The notes beneath the pieces are model-generated. The model saw nothing but the letters and a program-made list of their open reading frames with translations, was not told the origin of the DNA and made no database searches. A DNA stretch of 64,000 nt from Auricularia sp. M13 (Eukaryota; Basidiomycota; Agaricomycetes; Auriculariales; Auriculariaceae), in the NCBI GenBank assembly GCA_037042915.1, contig CM073193.1:1984001-2048000 (forward strand), in the 5' to 3' direction. The position numbers were made by a program, and so were the translations under genes. Shown here piece after piece: positions 10,536 through 61,695 of the stretch (the first letter of the stretch is position 1; the number at the start of each line of letters is the position of its first letter).

Positions 10536-11740
10536 AAGTACAAAATGGGACTACTTTACTGGAAAGGCCTCATCTGGATACCCCGGTGGCGACGTCTTCT
10601 GGTGTTCGGCTGCAGAGTTGCTGCCTTGGCCGGATGTCCGCGCGAGATGATTATGATTGGAGACGAGTTGGCCGGCAGTACCTCGACAAGGGAGAATGAC
10701 GAGGGGCGCCTGGCAGTTACATCCGGTGTAGAGCCTTCTGGGACTGCCGCAGGTGAAGACCCGGTCGAGCGATGGAGGTCTGCACGTGGTTATGAGACTA
10801 TTGACCGTAGTAGCGAATGCAGGAAGAAAACATACTGTGAGTGGAGAGGGAGAGCAGCTAAGCAAGGCGGCAGACGATAGCGTTAGAATGGACGTGTAGG
10901 GGAGCGGAATGAGCTGCTTTGGGTCGTCAAAGAGCACAGACGAGAATGTGTTGACGGCCCGATGATCCTAGGATACTCGTCTTGCAAATTTGCCTCCTAC
11001 TAGGTGGTGGCCTGCTGAGCGTGTGCCTTCAAATCCCTAGCATCGTTGGAGCATCTTCATGGTCGATTTCGCGGCACGGGGGCAATGGCACCCGGATTCA
11101 AGCCTTGAGAGCGAACGAGTGCCGTGCTTGAAGAAATTCGCAGACAGCCCGCAAGCTATGATCTGAAGGCCAAAACAGCGAACGAGAGCCATTGGGAGCA
11201 TATATCGCCTGTATTTCAGAGTAGAGGGAACACTTGACGTACGGATAAGTTGTGATCATGGATGATCAGAGACAGGAGAGACGGCGGAGCGAGCACCGGA
11301 ACTGAGGCCAGCCTCCGCTCGCTTCCTCGCTAGCCTGCGTCCGCCACACACGGCCGCAAGGGCGCAGCACCCGATGCCCAGGCGTCTTGCTCGTCGAAGG
11401 CCCAGCACCGACTTGCAGTTTGACCTTGCGTGGGTCAACGCCTGGACGGCCATCCATTCCGGAACCGCCCACCACGCTCGAGCTCGAGCCGTAACCAGCC
11501 TTGCCAGCCGCCGTTCTGCGCCCTACATCTTGACTCATTTTCAGGCTCGAGTGAGTGGGCTCCATCCGCGCACACAGACGCTGTTAACGCATCAGTCCGC
11601 GGCGAAAGCTGTCCAGCTTCAGTGGCAGATGCTCGCGAACAGGGGCCCCAGCGGCCGCCTAGAGTCCGTACTCGGCGAACGGACAGCTGAAGACTCGCGC
11701 ACAGGTCTTCAGCTACTTGCGGTGCCAGCCGCAGCTGCGG

Positions 11741-12615
11741 TTATGTTGGATCTGTTAGCTCCGTCAGACCTTGAGGACTCGGAGTGTCGGCAGGTCGGCA
11801 GTGATGACACTGCGCACTGACCTCCTCGACAGTTACGGTTGAAAGTGGACTAAGTACCTTTTCTTTTAGACCTGATTCGCCATAGCCCGTGCCTGTGGGG
11901 GCCCGGATTTCGACGTCTGGCGACAGGCAGTGAAATGAGGGGCCACAGTCGAAGTCGACGAAACGGCGACACATCTGGTCGAATAATCCGCGTTGATTTG
12001 CTTCAAGGATGCCATTCCGTGCCCAGGAAATTGCTGCGTACACAGTAAGCGGCGTAAAATCCATTTGGGCAAGGTAGAGATTAATACGAACCTACCTAGC
12101 GCACGCATCGAATGGACCTCATCAGACAGGCCACACCACGACTGCCAGGGCGCGTAAACGACCTCGATGCGAATCAACGAAGGCAGCCACGCGCACCTGC
12201 GTTTGTGGTAAGCGTCGTGGAATATTCAGGACGAGGGCGAATCCAATTTCGCAGACTTGCCTACTTCACGCACGCATTCGAAAGGAAGCCGCCTATCCAG
12301 CAAAGCGAGCCCGCGTCGCGTCGACCACATATAGACTGACCATCCAGGGGCCCTGGTCACTGCGTCACCGTCGTACACTGCACCAAAGAACGCGCTCGCG
12401 TTGCTCAGACATACCTTGCCCGACCCGGTGCCCGACTCGCCTCGCTCGACGCTCTGATGGCAGTGCTTCCCGGTCGCCAGATGTCTGATGAGGGAAATGA
12501 GCATCAGACATCTGGCGACCGTGTATCGCGGTGTCGGGGGTGCATATTCACACGTAGCCGCACACCTGGGCCTTGGCTGCGTGCCCTGATCGCCATGCCT
12601 ACCTCGCAACGTCAA
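11741..12615 (-). pseudogene. Arm-conserved decayed coding segment (unknown family), left copy
   Basis: Minus-strand frames here share short protein motifs with the right arm at 59,915-60,470: NASAFFGAVYD against NASAFFDAAYD, REVGKSAKL against REAGKSARM, and LSPDVEIR in both. The motifs lie in the same order but neither arm keeps one continuous frame. This suggests an ancestral gene that was part of the duplicated unit and has since decayed. Family not recognised. A GTGSGK stretch occurs only in this copy and is not a complete Walker A motif. Confidence 0.35.
12471..12521. repeat. Perfect 20-bp hairpin, left arm
   Basis: CGGTCGCCAGATGTCTGATG is followed by an 11-base loop and its exact reverse complement. 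A matching hairpin sits at the equivalent place in the right arm (59,827-59,873). Confidence 0.85.
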
Positions 12616-14639
12616 TGGTGGCTCGTCGAGGGCGTGTTCACGTAGTCTGCGCGTCCTTCGAACTGTGGGCCCTCGATACGTTGCTCATGATCAGGGGACA
12701 CGACGAACCTTCCGCCTTGCCAGCTATAATTTGCCCGTGAGCGTGTCGATACTGTCGGTGAAGCTCTTCAGCTGGTCGTGGGAACCCTGCATCTGGTGTC
12801 TTGCTCGTATTGTATCACTGAGGCGTCTGCTGTACCTGGCCATGCTGGAATATGCGCGTGCTACTCCAGCGTCAGCGCCTGCTCAGCGATGCTACTCGGG
12901 CGGCGTACCCTTCGCCCTGCTGTCTGTTGCCTGTCGACGGCCCATACTGTCTACGCGTCGCCCGCGAATCCGGAAATACTGGGACTCGTGCTCGCTACTT
13001 CAGACGTCAGCATGTACTCGCCTGCTTTAATAGTGTGGCGTACCTCATGCCCTGCTGCATGTCGCATGTCAGACGCGAACGCTGTTAACGCCCTTGTCAG
13101 TTCTGCATCTTAGAAGTTTGTCAAACAAAGGAAAGACGAGCGACGACGACAACTCGGACGGACCTGGGCTCTCGCGACGGCGACGACGTCGTCCTGCTGC
13201 ACGACAGCCTCGGCTCGCGAGGGACTGTGCGGAGGCATCGAAGGGAACTCCACGCGGCGTGCTATACGGCTGACCGGGGTAAGTCGGTCGTCTTGTGGTA
13301 TTTGTGTTAGCTGGAGGCTGCGCTCGCCGACCGGACTGCGTACGAAGCTATGCACTATGACCATAACGCCTCTGATCCTTTCGATGCATGTTCTGTAGCG
13401 AGCATGGATAGTATGGCTGCGAGCATGTACGCTGGTCGCTATCGGTAGCAGGGGCACGCTGGTCGCCGTCGTGCTCGGCAGCCAGGAACTCGCGCGCGTG
13501 CCGACCAAGACTCGGCCACAGTGACTCCCCAGCTAGTCTTCACCCAAGCCTATGGCGGTCTTGATGCACTCGACGTGTTTTCATATCGCTAGCCTGGGCA
13601 ACGGGCGTCGCAGCGTGAGCGTTGGCTGCAGGCCGGCGCGAACTGAACGCACACCTGCTGTACCGGGGTATCTCAAGGTTTGGGGTAGCCGCGTGACTGT
13701 CTCCATCACACTGATTCACTGGGCAGGCTGGCCCGGCTTCGGGCTACGTCTTTTGCCAGAGATGAGGCAGATTGGGTTCGTCTGCGCGTTCGGGCATGTG
13801 AAGCAGAACTGCGACCCTGGAGCCGCGTCCAAGGCGCGCCGAGTACTGCGCCACAATACAGCATGATACCCTGTCCTGGCGCACGCATGCCTAGCTGGGA
13901 AAGAGGGTACGGGGACGCGGGCAGCCTGAGGGATGCGGTGACATTTCGCGCGTGCCAAACACCGGCATCCGCCCTAGCCGCCGCTCCCTCGCTGACCAAC
14001 GCTCGCTCACGCCGCCAAAACGTCTGCAGGTTCTCTTAGGGCACGCATGAGCCGTCGTTTATGCGTCTCCCTGCTTGTATGCGCGGACTTTTCGCGAGAC
14101 GGTGGAGCGACAATCAATCGGCGGCGTAGAAACTTTCCGCCGCGTCGGTCCATCAGACTGATTCAGAGTCACTGCGGGCCTTTCTGTACCTGTTGCGCCG
14201 TGAAGCTGCCGCTGGGACATCCCGCTTCTCCGGGGACCCCAGGACTCCTACTCATTTTGTTTTCGTTTTCGTTTCGGGCGACGGGCGCCGCGCTAGCCTC
14301 TGGCCCGAGCGTGCTTCCCTTCCTTCCCCCCGTCGCTGCGCCCCTCAATAAACTCACGGGCGCGTATGGTGCGCGTACTGTTCGCGCGAAATTACACTGT
14401 ATCTAAGATCCCATCCCCAACGTCGCCGCTGCCTGACAGCAGCCTCCCTCGCGATCCACCGGCTAGGATCTCGCGTCCCCTCCCACGCGCAGGCCGTTAG
14501 CAGCTTTCCAGAATACACGTCATTTGGGCATTCAGTGCGAGGAAGCACGGGCCTTGCTGCTCACGTTTTCTTGCGAAGCACGGCGAGAATCATTTGCATA
14601 TGATCTTGATTCTTGACGTTGACGGCCCACACGCGGCTT

Positions 14640-14860
14640 GTGCTTGTGCTTTGGCATTCCGATTGCATGCCTGGAAGAACTTGACGTTTTGACGTTGCTT
14701 GGGTGCAGTTTCGCGGTGTGGCTGAGGCGGATCCCTGCGTACGCTTGCGGAATTTCGAGATGGCAGGATAGCCCCTTGAATCACACAAGCTTGAGCTTGA
14801 ATCTTGATATTGAGGTGTTCGTCTTGAATCTTGAAGGCAAGGTAGTCTTGAGGGAGAAGG
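14640..14860 (-). repeat. CAAG/CTTGA-rich block downstream of the WOPR gene, left arm
   Basis: On the minus strand the pentamer TCAAG recurs densely. The same type of block lies at the equivalent place in the right arm (57,590-57,850) and in the third copy (46,990-47,165). Confidence 0.45.
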
Positions 14861-15684
14861 GTTCCAGCATAGAGTAGATGTTCCATTGAGCAAGAAGTAA
14901 CGAAGTGGGAGTGGTTGGCACGGCACGGGCAGCGCCGCCGCATAATTGACCAGGGATAACCTCCAAGTCACGCCCGGCATCGGTACAGCAGCCATTGCGA
15001 GACATACTGCCCGACTCCAGTCGTTGCTGGTGCGCAAAGTCGAACGCTGCTGCCACAATTGCTCGTCGATGGCTCCGCCGAGTCGCCAAGCGCAAGCACC
15101 CACTGATCGGCGGCGCGGGTGATCGGGATGGGCGCGGGCCTCGTCAACGATGACTCTGGTCGCAGAAGTCGGTCGCGCTGCTCGTCGTGCTCGTCGTCGG
15201 GAGATGGTGGCGGGAAGAGAGCAAGACGTCCGGCCGGATCACAGCCTCCGGCAATTGTGGTCGCGGCTTCAGAAATGCACCCGGGCGCGCGCTTATCGTT
15301 CACAAGTGCCTGGGCGTGCCGTTTAATTTTTTTTTGAGCTCAAGTGACTCGGCGAGCTTCTCTGAGTGAGCAGACCTGGAATCTCATTCAGTCTCAGTCC
15401 TTCCACAGAGGTTCGTGACCGGTTCGAAATTCCAGCTCCCATTCTCAGCGAACAAAAAGCCATACCTTCAGCTCCTCGCAGGAAACAGCAATGTCCAAAA
15501 CTCCTAACTCGCACGATCCTCGGTGGCACAAAGACTATACTGAAGGAAGACACCATTTGTATTTAGTACACTGGAATTCACTATGCCGTGTGTAGGTACT
15601 TGAGACTAGCGAGCTATTACTGTGAAATGACGAGCGACGAAAGCAAGATAAACACATCGAGAGCGAGCAAGATCATTATCAAAA

Positions 15685-16752
15685 TTAAAACCAATGTCCG
15701 TAGTCGCACGCGAGCCAGGGGCGAGCGTCGAGGCGCGACAACATCCTGTCATCGTAAGGGTCGCGGCGGCGGGCGTACGGTAGCCAGCGCGTCGATTCCG
15801 CCAGGCGTGTGGTGAGCCGCGGCGTGCGCAGGCGCGGAAAGAGCTGGCGCTCTTGTTTTGAGATTAGAGGAGAGTCGGACGGGGAGACCCAGCGTTCGGC
15901 CGGAGTGGGCGGTGACGGCGATGACGAGGGAGACGGCGACGGAGATGGAAGAACAAGAGACGCCGACGGTGAGAAAGGTGTGAGAGACACCGCGCGCTCG
16001 TCAACGATGGCTCTTGGCGATTGAGTCGACACAGCGCTGGCGTGCGCGGGGAGCAGCAAATCGTCGATGTCGCTCGTGAGGTCGCGGAAGTCGAGGCCGT
16101 GCACCTTATGCGCGTCGTAATCGTAAGCGACTGCAACACCAGGTGAGCAAATGTAAAATGCCGCGCGCACACGGAAGATTCGCAGCGCGACGTACTGATT
16201 TCCCATTCACGCTCGACGCCGTCCGCGCCTTTCACCTTCAGCGTCGCGCGTTTTTTAATCCAGGGCGCATTCGGGACCGCGCCAGGGAACGCGGGTGGGT
16301 TGGGGACGGGGTAGCAGAGGAATCCCTGAGCGCGCCGGCGTCAGTGCAAAAGGCAAGCGCCGGAGAGCGACACGCACCCCGCGTTTTGTGCTGCTGGGAT
16401 CATTCTTGTCGCGCAGCCCATCCGTCTGCGGGACGCGGTCAGCCTGAGTGCGGGAGCGGCGAGGTCGGGAAACGAAATCCGCAGCGGCACTCACCCAGCG
16501 CTTGCCGTCCTGCGTCGGGATCGCCCACACCTGGCCCGGACCGACCAGCCTCTGCTCCGACTTCCTGAGGTAGCGGTGCGCGACGTTGAGCCGGCCGCGC
16601 GCCGCGTACTTGGCGATCTGCTTCGCGTCGTTCACGTTCCTGCACAGCGACAGAGGGGTCAGCATGCACGGGGAGAACACTCAGCGCTCGCAGGCGACGC
16701 ACTGTAGGCGGAAGCCGCGCAGCGCAGGCTCGGGCGGCGCGTCGTAAGTCAT
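15685..16752 (-). CDS. WOPR (Gti1/Pac2-like) transcription regulator, left-arm copy
   Basis: Five exons (16752-16703, 16639-16495, 16425-16378, 16325-16196, 16130-15685) give 272 aa; introns of 63, 69, 52 and 65 nt. WOPR proteins are fungal DNA-binding master regulators of morphology and development. The N-terminal half-domain shows GQVWAIPTQDGKRWTDG (about residues 51-68), then GGFLCY; the second half-domain shows WIKKRATLKV and EWEI, then AYDY (about residues 126-129), the usual WOPR order with almost no linker. A Ser/Pro-rich middle and a conserved tail (RRRDPYDDRMLSRL) follow. At about 272 residues it is shorter than most described WOPR proteins. A TATA box lies 96 bp upstream. Exon sequence is nearly identical to the right-arm gene and the frame is fully intact. 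Confidence 0.85.
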
Positions 16753-16847
16753 CAGCAGCGGCGGGAGGACGGGCGAGTGGGCGAGTAGTAGTTGGGGAAA
16801 AAGGACAAAAAGGCGCAGAGTCCGGCCGGCGCAAACAGTGGCGAAGC

Positions 16848-16853
16848 TATATA
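16848..16853 (-). promoter_or_regulatory. TATA box of the left-arm WOPR gene
   Basis: TATATA on the minus strand, about 96 bp before the ATG at 16752. The right-arm gene has the same element at the same distance. Confidence 0.6.
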
Positions 16854-18619
16854 CAGTCGCGTTGTCAGTGTGGGAAGACAACTGTGATTAGCGGTGCGTG
16901 TCGCACCTACATGACGGCGTGCTGTTTAAATCAACTGAATGGAGGTTAATTTGAATGGGTTTATGTTCGCGCGGCGCGTGCTGAAGTCCGAATTCGGCTG
17001 TGAATTTGTTGTTCGCCGTCACCTGGCCGACGACAGCCGAGGCGGGACCCCGGAGAGCGCGCGACCGATCGTGACCGTCCGCATTCGGACGATTTGCACC
17101 ACCTAATCTGTTTACACCGTCTGTCGCTGGCGCTGTGCTGCCCTTTGGATGCGATGCTTCCCTGCCTCCGCAACCCTGCTAGTTATTCGTGGCTTAGAGT
17201 TCGCAATTAAAGGGACCGAGCGGATACAATGCTGACCTCATTTGCATGCGAATCGGATTTCCCAAGATCGTGGGAAATGGCGTAGTGTCCGAGGTTCAGG
17301 CAGCGTTTACTGGCGAAGACTGCTGGGAGGCACGGTCAACTCATCGTGGAAAGCAGCGCAATGAGGTTGGATTTATTATAGGAACCGATACCTTCAAGGG
17401 AGTGCATATAGACTACTGTCAGCATATATTCACACGGTAGAACTGCAAGACCAGAGCTCGAGGCAAGCTTGAGCGGAACAGCGGCCAAATATGAAGGCCA
17501 TTTATGTTGTTGCGGATTCTGATTGAACCGCACATTTCGTTGGTGACAAAAGAAAGTATATTATAGCGAAAGGACAGAGAATTTTACAGTCACGTACTGC
17601 GAGGTCGTTACACGCGGCAGAGCGCTGGAACCAAGGATCGCGACGATGCGAGGAGCGTAGAGTGCTGGGATGAAATGAGCCATGGAGTGCACGGTGTGAA
17701 AAATGACGAGTCGGCGATGATTTGATACAGTCGAGGATGGTGCAGCGGCGAGGGCAGGCAAGGCAGGGGAGGAAGTCGCGAGTAGGAGGGCAAGTCCGGG
17801 TCGCGAATTCGATGATCTGAACTTGAACAAGGTTTCCGCGCGACCGGCCGGAAACTTGAACGACTCAGCCTCGATGTTGCTCGTAGCAACAGCCACGGCC
17901 TCCGGCAAGCTGCAGCGCGACTGCTCCACCTATCAGGCGCCTTGTACTTGTCTTGGGTAGCATTAGTTGGCGGGCGAAAGCAGTATCGGGGGTTCAGCTT
18001 GCCTGTCGAAGTTCGCAACGCTCGAAGAGCCGTTGTTCTTCAATGTAGGTCGAGCTCGAGGCTTGCACAGGCTGTGTAGCTTGTCCTCCAAGGTCTGTGG
18101 AGGATATGGCGTGGATAGGGTACGAGGCCAGGTCTTGAGCGGATCAAGACCTTGACGACCGAACCGGCCCCCATCCAGTCTGCGCGTTCAGCACGAGATT
18201 AGTTGGCAAACTCGCTCGTAGAGGTAGCCCACCATTTCCAGCATACCATGCGCATGTACTGATGCAGTTTGAAGAGTCCAACGGGTGTCGAGCTTGAACC
18301 AAGCGCGGCGTGGTGGAGATGCCTTTCAACTTGAAGCCCCAGATTTCAAGCGAGGATATGAGCAAAAGCACGACCCACGTCAACTCGAGAAGGCCCTGCA
18401 TAGATTCGACGCCTAAACCTGCGCGAAGTAAGCAATCTTATTCGATAAGTTGCCCGTGCTGACCTTGCCGACGTTCTCTACCACTCGACAGCCAGCGACC
18501 CTCCCTGCAACCGCGCTGTGATCAATCGCTCGGCAGGCTACGCGCATCACCCACCCCATTTTTATTTTCGATGCGATATCCAAGCTCGTCATCACCCCAA
18601 TCGACCTGGACGGTATATA

Positions 18620-18949
18620 TCAGCTCGATCGTCGATTGCGCGCGACCAGTCCCATGTGTCCAACGTACTCCAACGAACCCTGCTTCTCGGACGACGACGA
18701 CGGCGTGTGCAGACCTTGACTGCATCTTGGGCGCCGGTGGGCGAACGACTCGATGGTCGAGGCGGCCTGCTCGCGAGTAGGATGCTGTTGGCCCAAAATC
18801 GTCAAGACCAACTGGCTCGTCGTGGACGGCGTGCTGCCAGTGCATGTGCTTGACGCCGCGAAGTCGCGCGACAGCGCGTACACGAGCGCCTTGCTGCACT
18901 CGCGATGGATATGCTGGCAATGGCGGACCTCGTCGGTCAGCATCTGCAC
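18620..18949 (-). pseudogene. Arm-conserved decayed coding segment upstream of WOPR, left copy
   Basis: The frame carries MQMLTDEVRHCQHIHRECS, and the right arm (53,344-53,590, plus) carries MQMLTREMRHLQDMHRECS; both continue with ALVY and LSR. After about 45 codons the two diverge and no intact longer gene is visible. Upstream on the same strand, both arms also share an ALRV(D/E)EH motif. Probably remnants of one ancestral gene; family not recognised. Confidence 0.35.
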
Positions 18950-21627
18950 GCGGACTCGGACCAGCGGGCGTACCTCCTCCCTCGTCAGCGGGCGTGAAGC
19001 TCGCCAGGAAATCCTGTCGATGGTCGCGGTCAGCGCGCGAACGGGACGTTACGGGCTGGATGCTGATCATGCTCGTCAAGCCCGGCCTGCGCGAGGAGGA
19101 TGGCATACTCGACGGCGTGTTCGTCGACCCGCAATGCCGTGACGGCGAGCACAAGAGCACGCCACCGTGCTCGGGACTCGATGCCCCGATGCCCTGCGGA
19201 CGGCGCACGCGTCCGTCAGTACATGTGCGTCAAACCCCTGAACGATGAGCGTACCTTCGCCTAGACTCGAGCGCGCTGCTGCCTCCGCAGGCGGTCGTGC
19301 AGCTGCATCGTCGCCGTATCGTTCTTCGGCTGCTGCGGAACGAGCTGCCTCAAGCGTGCGCAGACTTTGTCGGTATGAGCGGCTAATGCTCACTGGTCGT
19401 CCTGAAGCTGCATACGCTGAACCACCGGAAGACTGGATCATGAGCTCTCCATGGCGGACGCGCATGCGCTCGCTGGATGCTGCGTACCGCTCTGGGATCA
19501 TAGCAGCCTATGGTGTACCTCGCCATGCATAATGGTGTATACAACTTGGGTATAAACGCCTGGTATTCTCGTCAGTCTGGCAGCTCACAGCATCGTACGC
19601 GCAACATCACTGCAACCTTGAGAAGCCGTTGAGGCAACGCATCGCAGACTATAGCGGCGTCCGTGCCAGCCACGAGCGTCGCTGTCGTCCGCAGGCATTG
19701 CCTCAACGCGCAGCGAACTTGTCCACACCGCTAGGCCTGACCAGCATGTTCATCTTCGCCTTGAATGTCCCTCCACTCTTGAGCTTGATATGTGAGCGTC
19801 GAGCGCATTCTGGCTGTCTTAGAGCGTCGAGCGCGGGCTGGGAGGGGAGCAGCGGTTCAACACCTGAAGCTTGAAACTGTTTGCTCGTCGGACGGTCGGC
19901 GCTTGCGTTAACTCCGGCCGTTCAACTTACTGCTGCTCGCTGTCTCCTGCAATCTAAACGATCTAGTCTACTGTCAGCCGCGACGTTCGAGCTCGTCATG
20001 CATCATGTTCCAAGACTGCGTCGCCAGGGACGGGCGGGATACGCGTCCGCCGGGTGCGCCGCTGATTCGGTTGCAGGCCCCCGGCCACTTGAGGCGTTTT
20101 GATTTGAGCCTGGGCTGCCGCTGTTGTGTTTCCCCGCTGCGCCCGCGCGAATTTCGCCACATCGCCATCCGGAATTCTTTTTTCGATTCTTTGATGCGCG
20201 CTTTGGGCGCCTTTCGCACGGACGAAATCACCTACTGTATTGCTCCTCTCCCCCGCGCGTGCACGTCTTTGATCAGGGCACGCCCCCGATCCACGCCCGC
20301 CCCGTGCTCGGCTATACTCAGACATCTGTCATTTGGGTTGCCACGGGCAATTTTGTACGGTGCGCGCCGCGTCTGTCGCTGCTCCGAGCTCGCCCGAGCA
20401 CCTATTTTCCCATGTCAAACAGCGGCTTGCGCATTGGGTTGTGACGGTGTGCGACGCTCGCGCTCCCGTTAGATTTGTAGGTTTACTTCCCTTAGAGACC
20501 TTGCGGGCTGGCAAGGTTCCCGCAATTCTTCGTCGTTTGCGTCTTGCGTCTTGCATCTCGTGTTTTGCTGCCTTGAGGCACTCTTCTGACGGGGCAGGCT
20601 CTTGGGTCACTCAGCTTGATGAATCTTGACGTCTTGCCGGGGATCTTTCTTGTAGTAGAAGCTAGAGGTCTTGAAGGCTTGACGGGAAATTAGGAAATGG
20701 AAATAAACGGCATAATAATTTTGATTCAAGGACGAAGCAGAACAGAAATGCCAGTGCATCTAGGTAACAGGGTGAATCATAGTTAGGTCCGCGGATTCGA
20801 GGAATCCGTGATTCGCAAGAGAAATTGAACGTGGGTGCTTAGCATGGCCGAGGGATCGCGCGTTACGTTGCAGCCTTGCATCTGTTCGAGTGGCGGCTGG
20901 AAAAAACCAATCAGTCGTAATTCCAGTCATCCGAGCAGCCAGAAGAGCGTACTGGAATTATCGGACATAGATCCAAGAATGTCTTGAACCGAAATCCAAA
21001 AGCGGGCGTCCCTGGTAATCGGTATCGCCTACGTGTAGACCCGGCCAACCGCGCAGTCTTAAGATGCAGTTTGCCGGCTTACAGGGCGTCCAGTTTGGAT
21101 GGATAGAAGGCGAAAGCAGGAGGAATGTGGCAACATCAGGGCAGAAGGGCAAGCTGCGTTACGGCTCCGAAGCGGAGTGTGCAAATCGGGAGTCCCGGAC
21201 CCGTTGGCCGGTCCGTCCCGAAGTTTTGCATTCGCCCTGAATGCTCAGAAGGCGGATTCACATGAGCGAAACAAGTGCGCTTTGGGGTCGGATTCATTTT
21301 ACATTCGGTTTCAAATTTCTCCGGCGAACCCAATAGCGAGCCTTCTAGCAACTGACCCAGTCGACTCCCTGTCGTAAACCCGCAGCCTATTGGCGCATCA
21401 GCACATTCACGTTGGCGAAAAGCGCTCTTTATGAGCTCGTATGATACTGATACACGATACATACTGTACTGTAGAATGTCCACACAATGAGCCGGAATCA
21501 ATAAGTGAACGTTCGCATTATACAGGAGCACGCGGTCAAAGTCAGCTTATCATACTTAGCATACAGTACAGTCAGAGGGGTGTGTATAAGTAACTCTAGC
21601 ATGCAACGCGCAAAGAACCGGCCTCGC

Positions 21628-25571
<3,944 letters not shown>

Positions 25572-29612: not shown

Positions 29613-29668
29613 ATGAGAGAAGCGCGGGCGGGCTCCAAGCTCGCCGTCTCCCCCTCCCTCCGTCTGCC

Positions 29669-47165: not shown

Positions 47166-48497
47166 TTAGATGAATCCCGAATTCGAGAAGCCCACCACCG
47201 TCGATGTCAAGGCGAAGCATGATCATCGTCGCAGTTCCACGAGAATGTGAGCAACAGACCGTTTCATCGATATGAATGGCCAGTTAACATGGCGAGAAGG
47301 ACGCTTAGACGTGGAATCACGCCGCGGTGGTGGATCGCGAGAATGGAAGGCAGGGTGCAGCTTGGGAGTTGGGTGTCGACCTAGATACCGTCACGTTGTA
47401 ATTTCGCGCGAAGAGCACGCGCCGCTAGTCCGAGAGAGTGAAGGGACGATGGATTAAGAGGCGCAGCGGCTGACTCGGAGGGGAAACTGAATTATCGGCT
47501 GAGAGAATGCTTGCGCGTGGGAACGGAAAATTTGCAGTCTTGGGGTCCCCAGCAAAGCGGGACAGCCCGGGAGTCAGCATCGCGGCGAGAAGAATGACCG
47601 ATGACTGATGATCCAAGACGACGGAAAGTTCTACGTGCAGCGCGGCATGAGCCTGACGTCCCACGGCGCGATCCACGAGCGGCGCAAAGGGTCCTCTCGG
47701 TCCTCTCCGCAAGTGATACTGAGAGAACGAGTGAGGGCGAACAGTAGCAGAAAGTTGCAGAGGCATAAGTGCGTGTTGGTCAGCGCGGGAGCGGCGGTCA
47801 GGGCGACTGCCGGTGTTTGGAACGAAAGCAACCGCACGTCTGTCCCCATCCCAAAGCTCTCTCTTCCTACGCGCAGGATCGTCCCCTTGGGAATACGTCA
47901 CGCGAAACCGTAAGACAGCGTTTGATAAGCCTGGGACCAGGTCCTAGGGCGGTTCTCTTCGTCGTGTTCCCACAGCCGTGCAGGCAAACTCAATCTGCAG
48001 CATGATGGCTAAACCGGCTGAGCTCCAGTAGTCCAGAAGACCATCGTGGTAGAGAGCACCCCGTCAGATTCATAAACTGTGAGACCTCGTGGAAGCAGTA
48101 GCTGTGTCTGTAGCATTCGCCAAGTTGGCGACAGCAGTATGCTCACCGTCTCGGGACGTCTCGCAGTCGTACACTCTGGCAAAAATCCAGCTGAATTAAC
48201 GCGCCGTAAACGCATCAGCCAGGATCAACATTGCAATACCGTGGTAGGTGCTCCATCAATGCTATCGCGCGCGAGTATGCTAGCACCTGGGAACGAAGGC
48301 GACCAGCGCGACGCCAAGCTCTTCCAGCAGCAATACGACAACACACAATCGATTAAGGACCAACTGCAGGAGCGCAGAGCTTATAGTCACGAATACAGGT
48401 ACGTACGTCGTTCGGTCGAGGAAGGTCGCAGCACTTACTAACGACCGACGCGCACAGCAGCATCGCATCGCTCGGGCTATGAATCCAGCGCTATTAC

Positions 48498-48897
48498 ATG
48501 TTTCCTGAGCTCTACCCAACAGATCGTCTGCAGCACTATGCGAAGCAGTTGCTGCTAGCCGGGAGCATGTGCGTTGTGCGCGATAAAGCAGGTCAGTAGG
48601 TCGTGCTCCATTTTCGCAGCAGCCAACTGATCGTATACAGCGAGAAACGCAGAAGACACTTGGACACACAGGCTCCAACGACAGCGTGCAAAAGGTACGC
48701 GATTCTCCATTGAAGGCGAGCCAGACGATGACGGCTCGGCAAGACGACTCGGGGTTCAGCGCGAGAAGATGCAGCCAGGTCAGACACGAGAAACAGCGCG
48801 GCCAAGAGAATCACGAGCAAGTAATGACGACTCAAAGAGAGCACGAGGAGCAAAGCAAAAGGTTCGTCGCAATCCTGCAGCAGATTCAGCTAGCTGA
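48498..48897 (+). CDS. Candidate small basic protein (116 aa), unknown
   Basis: Two exons, 48498-48591 and 48641-48897, joined by a 49-nt intron (GTCAGT...TACAG) in the right phase, give 116 aa. The first exon reads MFPELYPTDRLQHYAKQLLL; the second stays open for 85 codons and ends in a basic cluster (KRARGAKQKVRR) that looks like a nuclear localisation signal. A further open segment upstream (48259-48398, helical, with DAKLFQQQYDNTQSIKDQL) ends at a good donor, but joining it to this frame meets one in-frame TGA at 48480. So either the gene starts at 48498 or it is a longer gene broken by a stop. No clear counterpart in the arms. Family not recognised. Confidence 0.4.
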
Positions 48898-51640: not shown

Positions 51641-51715
51641 CGTCAAGATTCAAAGACGTCAAGCTACCCGCCTAAGCGTCAAGATACCTCGCAAGACGTC
51701 AAGATTCATCAACTC
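51641..51715 (+). repeat. CGTCAAG cluster
   Basis: Four CGTCAAG sites at 51641, 51657, 51677 and 51697, at 16- and 20-bp spacing. The left arm has the related CTTGACG block at about 20,590-20,690. Confidence 0.6.
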
Positions 51716-53343
51716 GAGTGACTCAACAGCCTGCCTCCCGAGAAGAGTGCCTCAAGGCAGCAAGACGCAAAACGCAGATGATGTACGACAATTGCAGAAA
51801 AAAAATCTTCAGTTCGCAAGATATCAAGCATTTAGATCTGACGGTATTGCGTCCGCGGCAGACCGTTCACAATCCGTGCGCAAGCCGCCGTTTGACGTGT
51901 GAAAATAGGTCCTCAGGCGAGGTCGTAGGAGCGACGGACGCGGCGCGCACCGCGCCAAGTTGCCCGTGGCAACCCAAATGACAGATAATTGAGTATAGCC
52001 GAGCACGGGGCGGGTGTGGATCGGGGGCGTGCCCTGATCAAAGACGTGCACGCGCGGGAGAGGAGCAATACAGTAGGTGATTTCGTCCGTGCGCAGGCGC
52101 GCATCAAAGAATCGAAAAAAGAATTCCGGATGGCGATGTGGCGAAATTCGCGCGGGCGCAGCGGGGAAACACAACAGCGGCAGCCCAGGCTCAGATCAAA
52201 ACGCCCCAAGTGGCCGGGGGCCTGCAACCGAATCAGCGGCGCACCCGGCGGACGCGTATCCCGCCCGTCCCTGGCGACGCAGTGTTGTAACATGATGCAT
52301 GACGAGCTTCAACGGCGCGGCTGACATTAGACTAGGCAGTTTAGATTGCAGGAGACAGCGAGCAGCAGTAAGTGGACCGGCCGGAGTTAACGCAAGCGCC
52401 GACCGTCCGACGAGCAAACAGTTTCAAGTGTTGGACTGTTTCTCCCTTCCCAGCCCGCGCAAGATCCTCGAACGTGAGCAGGATGCTGGCGACACTCAGA
52501 TATCAAGCTCGGGAGTCAAGGGATGCCCAAGCTTCAGAAGAATACGTTGAACAGCAAGCACAAGTTCGGTATACATCGGCACAGGTCAAACGAAGCCAAC
52601 CGACTACAACGTCGCTCGTGTCTGGCACGGGCGGCGCTATAGTCCACGCTGCTGCCCTCCGCCGCCTTCCTAGGTTGGAGTAATGCGTACAGTGCCGTGA
52701 ACTGCCAGGCTCTCGACGCTCCTAGTACCTGCGCGTGCACCCAACCCGTAGCGGTCACGCATGGCCGAGCAAGTCGAAGTTCGTTGTAAAAACGACGGCC
52801 TGGAAGCCCGATAGTGGTACACACCGCCCTGTACAGGTCCGTCGTCCAAGCTGATGATGCTCCAGCCCGGGAGGTTCCCAGAGATCAGCCTTACAGGAAG
52901 ATGATGCTCCAGCGGCGACGGCAGGAGTGTGCAAAGACGGCGGCGACCTTCACGATCACCGGTGGCTGCAGCAGCGCGTTCGCGCAAAGGCGAAGGTGCG
53001 CCCGCTGTTGCTTAAGTTCGTGCCCCGTGTGCTGACCGACGCGTACGATGCAGGTCTTGCTTAATGCGGGCCTTCTCGATCGCCATTGAGCAGGCCATCG
53101 GATCCCGACCGCGGCGTACTCTTTTGGTGACTGTCGCGGCGTTGCGGGTCGAAGAACACTGCGTCGAGAACGCCATGCACCTCGCGCTGGCCGGGCTTGA
53201 CGATCTTGGTCAACGCCACACGACCCGTAACGTCCCTTGCGCGCGCGGACTGCGACCTTTGGCGTGACGTCCTGTACGCCAATGGCAACCGACCGCCGAT
53301 AGCTAGGAGGATGTACGCCCGCCAGTTCGAGCATGCCATGATC

Positions 53344-53590
53344 ATGCAGATGCTGACCCGCGAGATGCGCCATCTGCAGGATATGCATCGCGAGTGCAGC
53401 AGGGCGCTCGTGTACACACTGTCGCGCGGCTTCGGGGCGTCAAGCGCACGCGCTGGCAGCACGCTGTCCACGACGAGCACACCAGTCTTGACAATGTCGA
53501 GCTGGCATCCTGTTCGTGCGCGAACAACCTCGAGCATCGACTGGACCTCCTCACGCTGCCGTGGATATCGTCGCGAAGGGCGCACGCGGC
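53344..53590 (+). pseudogene. Arm-conserved decayed coding segment upstream of WOPR, right copy
   Basis: Counterpart of 18620-18949. The frame reads MQMLTREMRHLQDMHRECS, then ALVYTLSRGF. It is not part of an intact longer gene that I can see. Confidence 0.35.
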
Positions 53591-55406
53591 GCAGAGGGTG
53601 CGTTGCAGGGCTTGCTCGCGTGCGGTTGGCGGTCGAGCTGATATACCGTCCAGGACGAGTGGGGTGATGACGAACTTTGGATATCGCGATTAAGTCGCAA
53701 TTAAAATAAATGGGGCGGGTGATGCGGCGTAGCCTGCCGAGCCATCGATCACAGCGTGGTAGCAGGGTTCGTGGCCTGGCCGTCGGACGGTCTGCGATGA
53801 AGAGAACGTTGACAAGGTCAGTACGAGCAATTCTTCAATAGAAAGCAGGTTACTTACTTTGCGCAGGTTCAGGCGTGCTATCTATGCAAGACCTTCTCGA
53901 GTTGACGTGGATCAGGCGGTTGCTCGTATGCACGAAGGGGCTTCAAGTTGAAGACGAGGCATCTCCACCACGCCGTGCTCGGTTCAAGCTCGACGACGGA
54001 CTCTTCGACCTGTATCAGCACATGCTCCTGGAATCTTGGACGCGGTCGGCTACCTTTATGAGTGAGTCTGTGAGCTACCATGCCGTAGAACGCGAAGAGA
54101 GGGCGGGCGTCGGTCCGGTCGTCAAGGACTTCAGCAGCTCAAGACCCAGCCTCGCGCCCTATCCACTCCATATCCTCCACAGACCTTGGACGACAAGCTG
54201 CTCAACCTGTGCAAACATCAAGCTCGACCTACATCCAAGAACAACGGCTCTTTGAGCGTCGCGAACTTCAGCAGGCAAGCTCAACCCCAATGTACAGCTT
54301 TGACCCCGCCATCTAATCCTAGCCCAGGCAAGAGCAAGGCACCGGCTCCCTGAAGCAGCCGCGCAGCAGCTCGTCGGAAGTCGTGGATGCCACGGTTGCC
54401 GCGAGCAACTTCGAGGCTGAGTCGTTCAAGTTTACGGCCGGAAACCTTGTTCAAGTTCAGATCATCGAATTCGCCAGCACCCTCCGACTCGGACTTGCCC
54501 TCCTACTCGCCACTTCCTCCCCTGCCCTGCCTGCCCTCGCCGCTGCATAATCCTCGACTGTATCAAATCTTCGCCGACTCGTCATTCTTTACACTCTGCA
54601 CCCATGGCTCGTTTCATCCCCGCTCTCGCTGCTCCTCCGCATCGTCGCGACTGCTGGCTCAAGCGCTCTGCCGCCTGTAACGACCTCGCAGTACGTGACT
54701 ATAAAATTTTCTGTCCTTTCGCTATAATATACTTTCTTTTGTTACCAACGAAGTGTGCGGTTCACAACAACATAAATTATTTGGCAGCTGCTTCGCTCAA
54801 GCTCGCCTCGAGCTGGTTTTGTACTGTCCCCATGCGAACATATGCTGACAGCTGTCTATATGCACTCCCTTGAAGGTATCAATTCCTATGCTAAATCCAA
54901 CCTCATTCCGTGGCCACTTTTCACCATGAGTTGACCGTGCTTCCCAGTCATCTCAGGTGAACGCTGCTTGAGCCTCGGAGACACAGTCTTTAAGATCGCC
55001 ATGGTGCCTTTCCCACGATCTAGGGAACTCTTATCCGCGTGCAAATGAGGTCAGTACCGTGTCGTCTCCGCTCGGACCCTTTGCGAACTCTAAGCCACGA
55101 ATAACTAGCAGGGTGGCGGCGACAGGGAAGCACCGCATCCAAAGGGCAGTACAGCGCCAGCAACAGACGGTGTAAACAGATTAGGTGGTGCAAATCGTCC
55201 GAATACAGACGGTCACGATCGGTCGCGCGCTCTCCGGGGTCCCGCCTCGGTCCTCGGCTGTCGTCGGCCAGGTGACGGAGAACAACAAATTCACAGCCGA
55301 ATTCGGACTTCAGCACGCGCCGCGCGAACATAAACCCATTCAAATTAACCTCCATTCAGTTGATTTAAACAGCACGCCGCTATGTAGGTGCGATACGGTA
55401 CCGCTA

Positions 55407-55583
55407 CAGTCGAACCTGTCTTAACCCATACTTGTCATAGCCCATAACCTGCAGTAACCCATAGGTTTTGGCTCTGACAAACTGAACGCTACAATGGCAA
55501 TCCACCTCTGGGAACCCATAACCTGCCATGACCCATACCTCGGAGGTTGAACCGACCGGTATGGGTTATAACAGGTTCGACTG
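55407..55583. mobile_element. 177-bp pogo/Fot1-like MITE in the WOPR promoter, right arm
   Basis: The ends are CAGTCGAACCTGT and its reverse complement, and TA is duplicated on both sides (55405-55406 and 55584-55585). The left arm has the empty site: the sequence that reads CCGCTAATCACAG there is split at TA by this insertion here. TA duplication with CAGT ends is typical of the Tc1/mariner group (pogo/Fot1). Inside, AACCCATA is repeated several times. No coding frame, so it needs a transposase from elsewhere. Confidence 0.88.
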
Positions 55584-55620
55584 TAATCACAGTTGTCTTC
55601 TCACACTGACAACGCGACTC

Positions 55621-55626
55621 TATATA
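55621..55626 (+). promoter_or_regulatory. TATA box of the right-arm WOPR gene
   Basis: TATATA 101 bp before the ATG at 55722; conserved in the left arm. The MITE at 55407-55583 ends 37 bp upstream of it. Confidence 0.6.
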
Positions 55627-55721
55627 GCTTCGCCACTGTTTGCGCCGGCCGGACTCTGCGCCTTTTTGTCCTTTTTCCCCAACTCCTACTCGCCCACTCG
55701 CCCGTCCTCCCGCCGCTGCTG

Positions 55722-56795
55722 ATGACCTACGACGCGCCGCCCGAGCCTGCGCTGCGCGGCTTCCGCCTACGGTGCGTCGCCTGCGAGCGCTGAGTCTTCT
55801 CCGCGTAAACGCTGACCCCTCTGTCGCTGTGCAGGAACGTGAACGACGCGAAGCAGATCGCCATGTACGCGGCGCGCGGCCGGCTCAACGTCGCGCACCG
55901 CTACCTCAGGAAGTCGGAGCAGAGGCTGGTCGGTCCGGGCCAGGTGTGGGCGATCCCGACGCAGGATGGCAAGCGCTGGGTGAGTGCCGCTGCGGGTTTC
56001 GTTTCCCGACCTCGCCGCTCCCGCACTCGGGCTAACCGCGTCCCGCAGACGGATGGGCTGCGCGACAAGAACGATCCCAGCAGCACGAAACGCGGGGTGC
56101 GTGTCGCTCTCCGGCGCTTGCCTTTTGCACTGACGCCGGCCCGCAGGGATTTCTCTGCTACCCCGTCCCCAACCCACCCGCGTTCCCTGGCGCGGTCCCG
56201 AATGCGCCCTGGATTAAAAAGCGCGCGACGCTGAAGGTGACGGGCGCGGACGGCGTCGAGCGTGAATGGGAAATCAGTACGTCGCCCCTGCGAATCTGCC
56301 GTGTGCGCGCGGCATTTTACATTTGCTTACATGGTCGTTGCAGTCGCTTACGATTACGACGCGCACAAAGTGCACGGTCTCGACTTCCGCGCCCTCACGA
56401 GCGACATCGACGATTTGCTGCTCCCCGCGCACGCTGGCGCCGCGTTGACGTCGACTCAATCGCCAAGGGACTTCGTTGACGAGCGCGCGGTGTCTCTCAC
56501 GCCTTTCTCACCGCCGGAGTCTCTTGTTCTTCCATCTCCGTCGCCGTCTCCCTCGTCCTCGCCCTCACTGCCCACTCCGGCCGAACGCTGGGCCTCCCCG
56601 TCCGACTCTCCTCTTATCTTAAAAAAAGAGCGCCAGCTCTTTCCGCGCTCGCGCCCGCCGCGGCTTCACACACGCCTGGCGGAATCGACGCGCTGGCTGC
56701 CGTACGCCCGCCGCCGCGATCCTTACGATGACAGGATGTTGTCGCGCCTCGACGCTCGCCCGTGGCTCACGCGCGACTACGGGCATTGGTTTTAA
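55722..56795 (+). CDS. WOPR (Gti1/Pac2-like) transcription regulator, right-arm copy
   Basis: Five exons (55722-55771, 55835-55979, 56049-56096, 56147-56276, 56344-56795) encode 274 aa; introns of 63, 69, 50 and 67 nt match the left-arm gene. Motifs: LRGFRLRNVNDAKQIAMYA, VGPGQVWAIP, KRWTDGLRDK (residues about 63-72), GGFLCYPVPNP, WIKKRATLKV, EWEIIAYDYD, a Ser/Pro-rich segment, and RRRDPYDDRMLSRL. In exon 2 it differs from the left copy at two of 145 bases (one silent, one Lys/Met). In intron 1 there are about five differences in 63 bases. Both arm copies have kept complete frames, which suggests both are under selection or are being homogenised by gene conversion. Confidence 0.85.
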
Positions 56796-57589
56796 TTTTG
56801 ATAATGATTTTGCTCGCTCTCGATGTGTTTATCTTGCTTTCGTCGTCATTCCACAGTAATAGCTCGCTAGTCTCAAGTACCTACACACGACATAGTGAAT
56901 TCCAGTGTACTAAATACAAATGGTGTCTTCCTTCAGCATAGTTTTTCTGCCACCGAGGATCGTGCAAGTCAGGATTTTAAGACATTGCTGTTTCCCGCGA
57001 GGAGCTGAAGGTATGGCTTTTCGTTCGCTGAGAATGGGAGCTGGAATCTCGAACCGGTCACGAACCTTTGAAGGACTGAGACTGACTGAGATTCCCGGTC
57101 TGCTCACCCAGAAGCTCGCTGAGTCGCTTGAGCTCAAAAAAATTAAACGGCAGGATCAGGCACTTGGGAACGATAAGCGCGCGCCCGGGTGCATTTCTGA
57201 AGCCGCGACACAATTGCCGGATGCTGTGATCCGGCCGGACGTCTTGCTCTCTTCCCGCCACCATCTCCCGACGACGAGCACGACGAGCAGCGCGACCGAC
57301 TTCTGCGACCAGTGTCTTCGTTGACGACGCCCGCGCCCATCCCGATCATCCGCGACGCCGATCAGCGCTTGGCGACTCGGAGGTGCCCCTGGCGAACCGG
57401 AGCAATGTGGCTGCAGCGCTTGCCTTTGCGCACCAGCGACGGCTAGAGTCGGGCAGCATGTCTTGCAATGGCTGCTGTACCGATGCCGGGCGTGACCTGG
57501 AGGTTATCTCTAGTCAATTATGCGGCGGCGCTGCCCGTGCTGTGCCGTCCACCTCCCACTTCGTTACTTCTTGCTCAATGGAACTTCTA

Positions 57590-57850
57590 CTCTATGCGCG
57601 AACCGTTCTTCCTCAAAGAGTCAAGACGAACACCTCAAGATCAAGATCAAGCTCAAGCATGTGTGATTCAAGACTATGTCCAAATTCGAAATTCCGCAAG
57701 CGTGCGATCGCACTCGCAAGGATCCGCCTCCGCCACAGCGCGAAACTGCACCCAAGCAACGTCAAGCCATCAAGCCGTCAAGTTCTTCCAGGGAATGCTC
57801 AAGCACAAGCCGCGTGTGGCCCGTCACGCGTCAACGTCAAGATCGTATGA
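57590..57850 (+). repeat. CAAG-rich block downstream of the WOPR gene, right arm
   Basis: TCAAGATCAAGATCAAGCTC-type runs and many scattered CAAG sites; equivalent to 14,640-14,860 in the left arm. Confidence 0.5.
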
Positions 57851-59826
57851 AAATGATTCTCGCCGTGCTTCGCAAGAAAACGTGAGCAGCAAGACCCGTC
57901 CTTCTTCGCACTGAATGCCCAAATGTATTCTGGAAAGCTGCAAACTAACGGCGAGATCCCAGCGGTGGATCGCAGGAGGAGGCTGCTGTCAGGCGGCGAC
58001 GTTGGGATGGGATCTTAGATACCGTGTAATTTCGCGCGAAGAGCACGCGCACGCGCCCGTGAGTTTATTGAGGGGCGAAGCACCCGCGGCCCAGGGCAAG
58101 GGAAGCACGTCGGCTAAGAGGCTGGCGCGGCGCCCGTCGCCCGAAACGAAAAACAAAACAAAATGCGTGGGGAGTCTGGGGTCCCCGGAGAAGCGGGATA
58201 TCCCAGCGGCAGCGTCACGGCCAGATACAGAAAGGCCCGCAGTGACTCTGATTCAGTCTGATGGACCGACGCGGCGGAAGGTTTCTACGCCGCCGATTGA
58301 TTGTCGCTCCACCGTCTCGCGAAAAGTCCGCGCATACAAGCAGAGAGAGAGAGAGACACGGAGAAAGCTGTTCAAGCGTGCTCTAAGAGAGCCTGCAGAC
58401 GTTGTGGCGGCGTGAGCAAGCGTTGGTCAGCGAGGGAACGGCGGCTAGGGCGGATGCCGGTGTTTGGCACGCGCGAAATGTCACCGCATCCCTCAGGCTG
58501 CCCACGTCCCCATACCCTCTTTCCCAGCTAGGCATACGTGCGCCAGGACACGGTGTTATGTTGTATTGTGGCGCAGTACCCGGCGCGCCTTGGACATGGC
58601 TCCAGGGTCGCAAGTTCTCCTTCAGATGCCCGAACCCGCACACGAACCCAATCTGCCTTAATCTCTGGACCAAGACGTAGCCCGAGGCCAGGCCAGTCCG
58701 TCCAGTGAATCGGTGTGATGGAGACAGTCACGCGGGCCCCACAAGACATGAGATACCCCGGCATAGCAGGCGTGCGTAGAGTTCGCACCGGCCAGCAGAC
58801 AACGCTCACGCTGCGACGCCCGGCGCCCAGGCTGGTAATGTGGCAACACGTTGCGTGCATCAAGGCTGTCATAGGCTTGGGTGAAGACCAGTTGGGGAGT
58901 CACTGTGGCTGGCGTTGAGTCCTGGTAGTCGCACGAGTGCCTGGGCGGCGTGCACGACGGCAGCCAACGCGCTACCGCCAGTGAGCAAAGCACATGCTCA
59001 GTAAAGAACGTGCACCGAAAGGCCAGAGGCGCTGTGGTCGTTGCGCTCAGCATGGTACGCCTTTCGTTCACGAGCGCAGCTAGTTTAACACGAATACCAC
59101 AGGACGACCTACCTACCACACGCCAGACCCCGCGGAGCACTCGCCCACACCCCTGCGCGCAGTCCTTCTCGAGGCCGTCGTGCAGCAGGACGACGTTGTC
59201 GCGAGAGCCCAGGTCCGTCGTCGTCATCGATGCTCATCCTTTCTTTGGCTAACTTCTGTGGCACAGAATCCACAAGGCCGTTAACAGCGTTGGCATCCCA
59301 CATGCAGCAAGGCATAAGGTACGTCACGCACGTAACATTGCTCAGTACATGCTGACGCCCGGATGAGCAGGCGCGAGGGCTAGTATGTCCCGATTCCTCA
59401 GCATTACGGACGGCGCGTCGACCGTACGGGCAATCGACAGGCCACAGGCAGCAGGGCGAAGGGTACGCCGCCCCATCAGCATGACCGAGCAGACGCTAAT
59501 GCCTCGATCAGCGAGGGGAAAATCCAGCATAACCAGGTACAGCAGACGCCTCAGGCACACACTACGAGCAACACAGCAGAGTCACGGAACCCACGACCAG
59601 GTGATAAGCTTCACCCATAGCAGCGGCACGTTTTGGGAGAGATTACGGCTGGCAGAGCGGAAGGTTCGTCGTGGTAGAGGGCTCACAGTTCGCAGGACAC
59701 CCAGCGTACTGAAACCCGGCCTGGACTGAGCACCATCCACGTCGCGAGGTAGGCGTTTCGCTCAATACACACATCCAGGACCCAAGTGCAGCAACGCGAG
59801 AAGATGCACCCCAACACTGCGCTGCA

Positions 59827-59873
59827 CGGTCGCCAGATGTCTGATGCTCGCTTCATCAGACCTCTAGCGACCG
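59827..59873. repeat. 20-bp hairpin with two mismatches, right arm
   Basis: CGGTCGCCAGATGTCTGATG, a 7-base loop, then its reverse complement with two mismatches. Orthologous to the perfect hairpin at 12471-12521; the loop differs completely between arms. Confidence 0.8.
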
Positions 59874-59914
59874 GGATGCGGAGCCATCAGAGCGTCGAGC
59901 AAGGCGAGACGGGG

Positions 59915-60470
59915 CAACGCGAGCGCGTTCTTTGATGCAGCGTACGACGCTGGCGCGGTGTCCTGGGCCCTGGAAATGGTCAATTCAGATCATCTGAACA
60001 CAGCGCAGTCTCGCTATCATCCGTAGGATACCGTCGTGCGCGAAGCAGGCAAATCCGCGAGAATGCATTCACCCTTGCCGTGAAGATTTCACGACGCTGA
60101 CCATGAGCGCAGATGCTCTTGGGTACGCGGAGATCCCTCGTTGGATCACATCGAGAGCGTTTACGTGCGCGGGCAGTCGTGTCCTGGTCTGCATGACGAC
60201 GTCCGTTCGAACGTGTGCGCTAGGTATGTTCGTCAGAATCATTAACTGCCCTTCTATAATGCTTACCATGTACGCAGCGCTCTCCAGGGCACGGAATGGC
60301 AGCGTTATTGTAAACGAATGCACGCGGATTATTCGACCGGATGGGACGCCGTTTGTTCGACTATCGACTATCGACTCGGAGCCGCCCTATCGCCAGACGT
60401 CGAAATCCGAGGCCCCGCAGGCATAAGCTGCGCTGGACAAGGCGCTAAAGAAAAGGTACTTGGCCTACTT
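59915..60470 (+). pseudogene. Arm-conserved decayed coding segment (unknown family), right copy
   Basis: Counterpart of 11741-12615: the motifs NASAFFDAAYD, REAGKSARM, MYAALSRARNG and LSPDVEIR occur in the same order but in different frames, with stops between. Confidence 0.35.
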
Positions 60471-61695
60471 GCGGCCGCAATTACGTCGAGGAGGTTGGGG
60501 GGATCACTGCCAGCCTCGCACTTCTCCAAGGTCTGACGGAGCCAGCAGATACCTCATAACCCTGGCCATTGGCACCCGTGCAAGTCTTTGGGGACCTATA
60601 GGTGCGCATTATCACCCGTCTGCTCTTCGAGCACAAGCTGGAGCTGGATCCTCTGTTCGCGCCGAGCATCTGCCACTGAACCTGGACAGCTTTCGCCGCG
60701 GACTGATGCGTCAACAGCGTCTGTGCGCGCAAGGTGAAGACCACTCACTCAAGCCCTAATAGGAAGAGTCAAGATGTAGGGCGCAGAATGGCGGCTGGCA
60801 AGGCTCGGGCTCGAGCGTGGTGGGCAATTCGAGTGGATGACCGTCAAGACTTCAACCCTTGCAAGTTCCCAATTGCAAGCTTGCGCGCGTCGGTGCTCGG
60901 CAAGATGTCTGGGCATCGGGCGTTGCGCTCTTGCGGCCGTCTGTGGCGGTCGCAGGCTACGAAGAGAGTCAAGCGAGCGGAGGTTGGTCTCAGTTCCGCT
61001 CGCTACCTCCGTCTCTCCTGTCTCTGATCATCCGTGATCACAACTTATCCGTACGTCAAGCGTCCACTCTGCTCTGCAATATAGACGATCCATGCTCTGA
61101 ATGCTCTTGCTCGGTGTTTCGACTTCAAATCATCCCTTGAGGCAGTCTGCAAATTTCTTCAAGGATTGCAAGTCGTTCGCTCTTCATCGTTCCAATCCGG
61201 ATGCCACTGGTCCTGTGCCGCAAACTCGAACATGAAAGTATGTCAAAGATGCTTGGGGCTTTGAGGATAACCGCTTAGCAAGTCACCACTCTAGTAGGGG
61301 AGGACTTTGCAAGACGAGTATCCTAGGAATCATCGGCCCGCCGACACATTCCCGTCTGTGTACTTTACCGACCCAAAGCAGCTCCTTCAGCGCAACCATA
61401 CGGTCATCCTGACGACCTTCATCTGTGGCTTTGCCTAGCTGCCTCCCCATTCAGGGTAAGTATTTCTTCGTCGTCCGATACACCGGACATAATAATCTCA
61501 TATCCACTTACAGACCTTCATCGCCCGACCATCCCACAGCTGCGGCATTCCCGGAAGGAATGCAACCACCAGGCGCGTCTCCTGATGCTCCCTTGTCGAG
61601 GTACTGCCGGCCGACGTCTCCAATCATTATCTCGCGCGGACATCCGACTAAGACAACAACTCTGCAGCCGAACACCAGAAGGCGTCGCCACCGCT

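Follow-up and report, generated by a model that had tools for sequence, protein, structure and literature searches.

An inverted segmental duplication with likely gene conversion inside a WOPR-like gene cluster of Auricularia sp. M13

Inverted arms and a cluster of WOPR-like genes

The window analyzed here is a 64,000-nucleotide stretch of chromosome 1 of the fungus Auricularia sp. M13 (assembly GCA_037042915.1, contig CM073193.1, positions 1,984,001 to 2,048,000), which holds two long inverted arms, each bearing one gene related to the WOPR (Gti1/Pac2) regulators. Window coordinates are used throughout; negative positions lie to the left of the window and positions above 64,000 to its right (Table 1). 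Self-comparison of the window produced an inverted, colinear pair, with the left arm (L) at 10584-21203 matching the right arm (R) at 61693-50944. The chain is composed of five pieces with E-values from 0 to about 1e-42: L 10584-16890 with R 61693-55584 (81.4% identity), L 16889-18631 with R 55406-53630, L 18815-19186 with R 53478-53093, L 19768-20863 with R 52523-51459, and L 20982-21203 with R 51163-50944. Upon global alignment, L and R are 82.29% identical across 10,144 aligned columns, and identity by segment ranges from 59 to 95%. The spacer between the arms (21204-50943) measures 29.7 kb. Inverted copies that differ at 18% of their sites do not resemble an assembly artefact, which is therefore an unlikely source of the arms.

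Further copies of the arm unit were sought in the window's own assembly (52 Mb, 14 contigs) by searches that scored only the best candidates and skipped very common words. The query L 10584-16890 returned five matches, all at the present locus: L itself, R and three short matches, which form part of a third unit inside the spacer. The query L 16891-21210 returned six. Three of them are pieces of R and one is L itself; of the other two, one is a match of 82 bp inside L and one is on contig 3, where a 378-bp stretch (window 19086-19463) recurs at 68% identity (C3:290653-291030). No full copy besides L and R was detected in these searches. Because only these two full copies were found genome-wide, the arms are, so far as a best-candidate search can tell, a local duplication; colinear, inverted and not dispersed, the two copies lie on a single chromosome and constitute an inverted segmental duplication. 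The arms could alternatively be two opposite-orientation copies of a large DNA transposon, and their colinearity and similar length would suit such an origin, as would the KDZ-type transposon adjoining the left arm, which has near-identical copies elsewhere. This origin is, however, extremely unlikely: no transposase was recognized in the 19 scanned of 20 arm-overlapping frames of at least 150 amino acids, none of which reached a Pfam cut-off (the one match at E up to 0.1 was to TSSC4, 16.8 bits against a cut-off of 27), and the inverted homology picks up again beyond the KDZ-type insertion, outside the arm. With no dispersed full copies found, the arms were rejected as a plain transposon.

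Six five-exon WOPR-like gene models were built by hand, with GT-AG introns (two acceptors are TAG, the others CAG). All six are open: the genes of L and R, three spacer genes at 29.7, 37.9 and 45.2 kb (s30, s38 and s45), and one gene approximately 25 kb to the left of the window. A seventh gene is represented by an exon-level match only, at about -28.3 kb. At least seven divergent WOPR-like genes thus occupy about 85 kb, from -28 to 57 kb (C1:1955710 to 2040795); the minus strand carries the three leftmost, including that of L, and the plus strand the four rightmost. The spliced R, s45, s38 and s30 genes were scored against PF09729 (WOPR/Gti1_Pac2; cut-off 23.6 bits). The s38 gene, well above this value, encodes a WOPR protein, and its first 130 residues match the solved YHR177W (E 2.5e-5) and Wor1 (E 2e-4) structures. 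The other three proteins fall below the cut-off, and their genes are therefore named WOPR-like. A profile of the six cluster proteins, s38 included, matches the solved WOPR domains of YHR177W (E 8.6e-6) and Wor1 (E 2.1e-5). A genome-wide PF09729 search, with E-values up to 1 allowed, found 16 matches at exon level, of which one lies in the present cluster. The L and R proteins are 93% identical overall and 98% identical in the core; both genes look intact, so two nearly identical WOPR-like proteins are probably produced in the cell.

These results agree with an earlier note made on this stretch, which had described inverted colinear arms of about 10.7 kb (placed correctly almost to the base) around a 29-kb spacer, one gene in each arm, and a spacer holding a histone demethylase (the JmjC gene at about 22.7-25.4 kb) and three WOPR regulators (here s30, s38 and s45). 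Its doubt that the arms are a plain DNA transposon was likewise upheld by the copy number and the arm frames.

Three further searches were negative. The sequence TTAAAGTTT, which we take to be a Wor1-type motif, is not enriched, with seven sites at up to one mismatch relative to a shuffle mean of 3.94 (seven was reached in 11 of 100 shuffles). No relatives were found in prokaryote contigs with a query that is little informative, being a stop-to-stop frame that overlaps the 38-kb gene in another reading frame. None of the paper titles listed in a literature search concerns clustered WOPR genes or their duplication in inverted orientation.

Table 1 Features of the locus in window coordinates.
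Feature	Position	Strand	Details
Left arm (L unit), inverted copy of R	10584..21203	-	Outer edge is the transposon insertion site
Right arm (R unit)	50944..61693	+	From self-comparison and arm alignment
WOPR-like gene, left arm	15685..16752	-	Exons 16752-16703, 16639-16495, 16425-16378, 16325-16196, 16130-15685; GT-AG, open frame
WOPR-like gene, right arm	55722..56795	+	Exons 55722-55771, 55835-55979, 56049-56096, 56147-56276, 56344-56795; PF09729 19.5 bits
WOPR-like gene in spacer (s30), five exons	29669..30744	+	PF09729 16.1 bits
WOPR gene in spacer (s38), five exons	37892..38891	+	PF09729 45.8 bits, E 9.8e-12
WOPR-like gene of third unit (s45), five exons	45195..46262	+	PF09729 18.4 bits
Third, degenerate colinear unit (s45) in spacer	40826..49988	+	Direct to R; matches to R and L
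Conversion-like core of L	15078..17224		95.0% identical to R 57380-55062
Conversion-like core partner in R	55062..57380		
Second high-identity tract of L	19831..20350		95.2% identical to R 52460-51960; adjoining stretches 59% and 73%; due to conversion or constraint
Second high-identity tract partner in R	51960..52460		
JmjC gene pieces (KDM4/Rph1 type) with PHD-like pieces, spacer	22688..25410	-	PF02373 E 3.7e-17
Right part of 17.5-kb KDZ-type transposon	1..10584	+	Whole element -6892 to 10584; splits the outer end of the left arm
Miniature inverted-repeat transposon (177 bp), R only	55407..55583		TA on both sides; ~140 bp upstream of the R start codon
Inverted homology continued outside right arm	61694..62656		Partner left of the transposon, about -6892 to -7767

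Uneven identity between the arms

The identity between L and R is distributed unevenly. Change-point analysis divided the arms into eight segments with identities of 0.768, 0.875, 0.950, 0.855, 0.761, 0.590, 0.952 and 0.734, and the best single split has a log-likelihood ratio of 67.6, compared to at most 5.7 in 100 shuffles. Two regions reach about 95%, a 2.1-kb core around the WOPR-like gene and a separate 0.5-kb tract, versus 59-87% elsewhere. Within the core, identity is 94.7-95.7% throughout: 776/819 in exons, 234/247 in introns, 555/585 in the 3' flank and 448/468 in the 5' flank. Exact matches between the arms reach at most 102 bp; when sites were drawn independently at the mean identity, the longest match in 2,000 draws was 85. 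The synonymous divergence (dS) between the L and R genes is 0.118, compared to a raw mismatch of 23% in the outermost segment.

The third unit in the spacer provides an outside reference for this pattern. In a sensitive comparison, the s45 unit at 40.8-50.0 kb has eight same-order matches to R and nine to L, with none in the reversed control of either pair. Synonymous divergence of the s45 gene from the L and R genes is about 1.6, which is near saturation; set against the dS of 0.118, this makes the s45 unit much older than the split between L and R. Upstream of the s45 gene, at 41491-42041, is an array that resembles a minisatellite, its repeat unit measuring about 184 bp.

Purifying selection on coding and regulatory DNA, with no exchange between the arms, could also leave some stretches more alike than others, and some non-coding blocks (a 31-base block, for example) are indeed kept even in the old s45 unit. 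One such block lies in the second high-identity tract, where agreement with s45 is as high as that of the exons. In the core, however, introns and exons are equally identical (94.7% for both), a result that is not explained by selection on the protein. Among sites at which s45 matches neither arm, L is identical to R at 97.1% of core non-coding positions (536/552) as opposed to 83.6% of flank positions (2038/2438), the flank here being L up to 13688 and from 17225 on, with the second tract included. Nor is the core non-coding sequence of s45 more conserved than its flank. Agreement between s45 and R is 50.9% in the core non-coding sequence and 49.1% in a flank that leaves out 19184-20350, while reversed s45 gives 41.7% and 39.1%. 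The resulting excesses of 0.092 in the core and 0.100 in the flank give no sign of stronger constraint on the core. Selection as the sole cause of the uneven identity is accordingly considered improbable.

These comparisons support an exchange of sequence between the arms in the core, for which gene conversion is the simplest mechanism, though the event is not directly seen. In this one genome, the core is a tract of identity raised regardless of function, as gene conversion would leave it. The second 0.5-kb tract was perhaps also converted. Several points weigh against conversion. The pattern was read from a single genome. Outside its matched blocks, s45 aligns little above the reversed control, which weakens the constraint test. 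The decay of identity around the core is in part gradual (95, 86, 76%), and the same core profile could result from a second duplication, shorter and more recent, or from a locally reduced mutation rate. For the second tract, the s45 excess of 0.133 (0.531-0.398) resembles the 0.132 of the exons (0.572-0.440), so constraint may explain that tract. With these points weighed, it is likely that the locus is an inverted segmental duplication, subject to gene conversion and set within a cluster of WOPR-like genes on chromosome 1. The type of structure is ordinary and its content unusual.

Transposon insertions, conserved flanks and locus history

The outer end of the left arm is interrupted by a 17.5-kb element. 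Inverted homology to the right arm stops left of 10584 and resumes at -6892, where L -6892 to -7583 matches R 61683-62339 (67% over 725 columns) and L -7578 to -7767 matches R 62467-62656 (190 bp at 92%). The element has inverted terminal repeats of about 128 bp (104 of 130 columns identical) and is flanked on both sides by the same nine bases, GGTGGCGAC, of which one copy is present at the corresponding site in R. It thus has both a target site duplication and, in the other arm, an empty site. It carries matches to PF18717 CxC4 at 121.7 bits (cut-off 26.9) and, at the borderline, PF18758 KDZ at 26.5 bits (cut-off 26.6). The right 3.3 kb of the element has 99% identical full-length copies on contigs 5 and 9, among the 47 matches listed, and the insertion is probably young. 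The insertion gives the left arm its sharp edge. The ends proposed for the arms in the earlier note were thus well placed as coordinates, but the left outer edge marks a transposon insertion boundary and not the end of the duplication.

The promoters of the L and R genes differ by one insertion, a miniature inverted-repeat transposon of 177 bp whose inverted ends span about 25 bp (read by eye). It is missing from L, and two 99% identical copies are found elsewhere, on contigs 3 and 1.

Within the outer sequence, R 62212-62646 recurs at 80.9-81.3 kb, which indicates that the history of this outer sequence is not simple. More sequence is repeated around the cluster in direct and inverted orientation, at 61.7-62.7 kb, 80.9-82.0 kb and, inverted, -8.5 to -6.9 kb. 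The frame at 62482-62979 gave no Pfam match. Farther out, at 97350-102539 and outside the window, lies a direct duplication of ~2 kb, at most 80% identical, with copies ~3 kb apart.

Three-way alignments revealed conserved blocks, both upstream and downstream of the gene, that are common to all three units. The 31-base block has only three sites in the genome at up to three mismatches, one in each unit, and its backward control never occurs. Among Rfam families at E up to 5, no structured RNA was found behind the blocks; the single match, to mir-465 (E 2.9, 44077-44150), lies outside them and does not reach its gathering score. ARAGORN, run with the bacterial code, found no tRNA behind them. 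The blocks are likely regulatory, and their persistence in a unit at a synonymous divergence of ~1.6 would indicate long, constrained flanks of the WOPR-like genes. No second gene per unit was recognized, each of the three units having one intact five-exon WOPR-like gene. When the R and L units were compared frame by frame with s45, the WOPR exons were the strongest matches. Weaker matches, down to E 2e-8, were obtained in L near 11.5, 13.9 and 18.2 kb and in R near 58.4 and 60.7 kb; the majority have counterparts in a different frame or on the opposite strand, as is expected of conserved DNA. The match at L 18194-18313 is not seen on the other strand and is a possible short further exon.

The JmjC gene at the left of the spacer has Rph1 as its closest solved relative (E 5.6e-32), and its PHD-like Pfam matches are all below their cut-offs. 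The idea that its protein had lost an iron ligand was dropped; the ligand is the histidine of the conserved GYHAGF motif, by a residue count based on KDM4A. The WOPR genes, the Rph1-like gene and the intron structure point to a fungus, whereas a laccase-like gene, with multicopper oxidases and laccases as its closest solved chains (E 1e-39 or weaker), was uninformative as to the species.

From these observations, a sequence of four steps can be proposed. An old tandem duplication would have given rise to the s45 unit and to the progenitor of R. Later, inverted duplication of the 10.7-kb R unit, probably together with ~0.9 kb more, would have placed the L unit ~30 kb away. Gene conversion between the arms, supported but not directly seen, would then have been centered on the WOPR-like gene, perhaps with one upstream tract as well. 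Finally, as the empty sites in the other arm show, the KDZ-type transposon entered at the left arm edge and the miniature transposon in the promoter region of R only.

Spacer inversion and comparison with known systems

A gene-conversion pattern implies recombination between the arms, without which no inversion could take place. It is mechanically plausible that a crossover between the arms would invert the 29.7-kb spacer, and the evidence bearing on this comes from a single assembly in which one orientation is represented. If occasional crossovers did occur, with no regulatory role, the result would be a neutral inversion polymorphism. The recombination signs in the arms are compatible with this outcome, but gene conversion can proceed without crossover and no inversion is observed in the one assembly, and such a polymorphism is rather unlikely.

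A further possibility, and a very unlikely one, is that crossovers invert the spacer within the population and thereby alter expression of the JmjC and WOPR-like genes. The inverted arms carry signs of recombination, and PMC6591007 reports that, in Candida albicans, long inverted repeats with a median identity of 98.3% mediate the inversion of spacers of about 3.1-94.3 kb. The present arms have a mean identity of 82% and a longest exact match of 102 bp, and only short tracts approach 98.3%; no second orientation is represented. A flip would also leave the JmjC gene and the three spacer WOPR-like genes under their own promoters, and any switch would thus have to act through chromatin or neighborhood, or through exchanged halves of the arm genes. 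In its working form, which we regard as just as doubtful, a crossover in the conversion-prone WOPR core would flip the JmjC gene and the three WOPR-like genes, with s45 then in tandem with either the L or the R arm. Were this true, a fungal mycelium would have two heritable regulatory states. Should both orientations be found, the locus would represent a DNA-inversion polymorphism around likely developmental regulators. The locus itself is a concrete fungal site at which ectopic recombination between inverted gene-bearing copies can be followed. It offers two near-identical regulator-like genes, a homogenized core and, as markers of the arms, two transposon insertions.

The resemblance to C. 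albicans extends to the setting, a fungal chromosome with gene-containing inverted copies tens of kilobases apart and recombination between arms. In PMC6591007, two inversions were checked by polymerase chain reaction (PCR) and seven more were predicted from sequence data, whereas here the arms average 82% and inversion is only hypothetical. The palindromes of the human Y chromosome, as presented in PMC6790999, are similar in that gene-bearing inverted arms are homogenized by conversion. They differ in having highly identical arms and, for P8, a spacer of 3.4 kb, in contrast to one or two converted-looking tracts and a spacer of 29.7 kb at the present locus.

The left-edge element is comparable to the KDZ transposons treated in PMC12730594, given its CxC4 domain and borderline KDZ match. 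Its ~128-bp inverted repeats and 9-bp target duplication can be set beside the 8-bp duplication given there for Zisupton, and they are unlike two Kyakuja families with a 7-bp target duplication and no inverted repeats.

With respect to the WOPR regulators Wor1, Mit1 and Ros1, as covered in PMC4917244, the likeness lies in an N-terminal domain that here matches the solved Wor1 and YHR177W. Most fungal genomes have two WOPR paralogues according to that text, in contrast to the at least seven clustered, divergent genes found here, and three of the four scanned window genes fall below the Pfam cut-off. Ros1 is described in the same source as having an unusually long promoter that it binds itself, a feature that recalls the long conserved flanks of the units described here.

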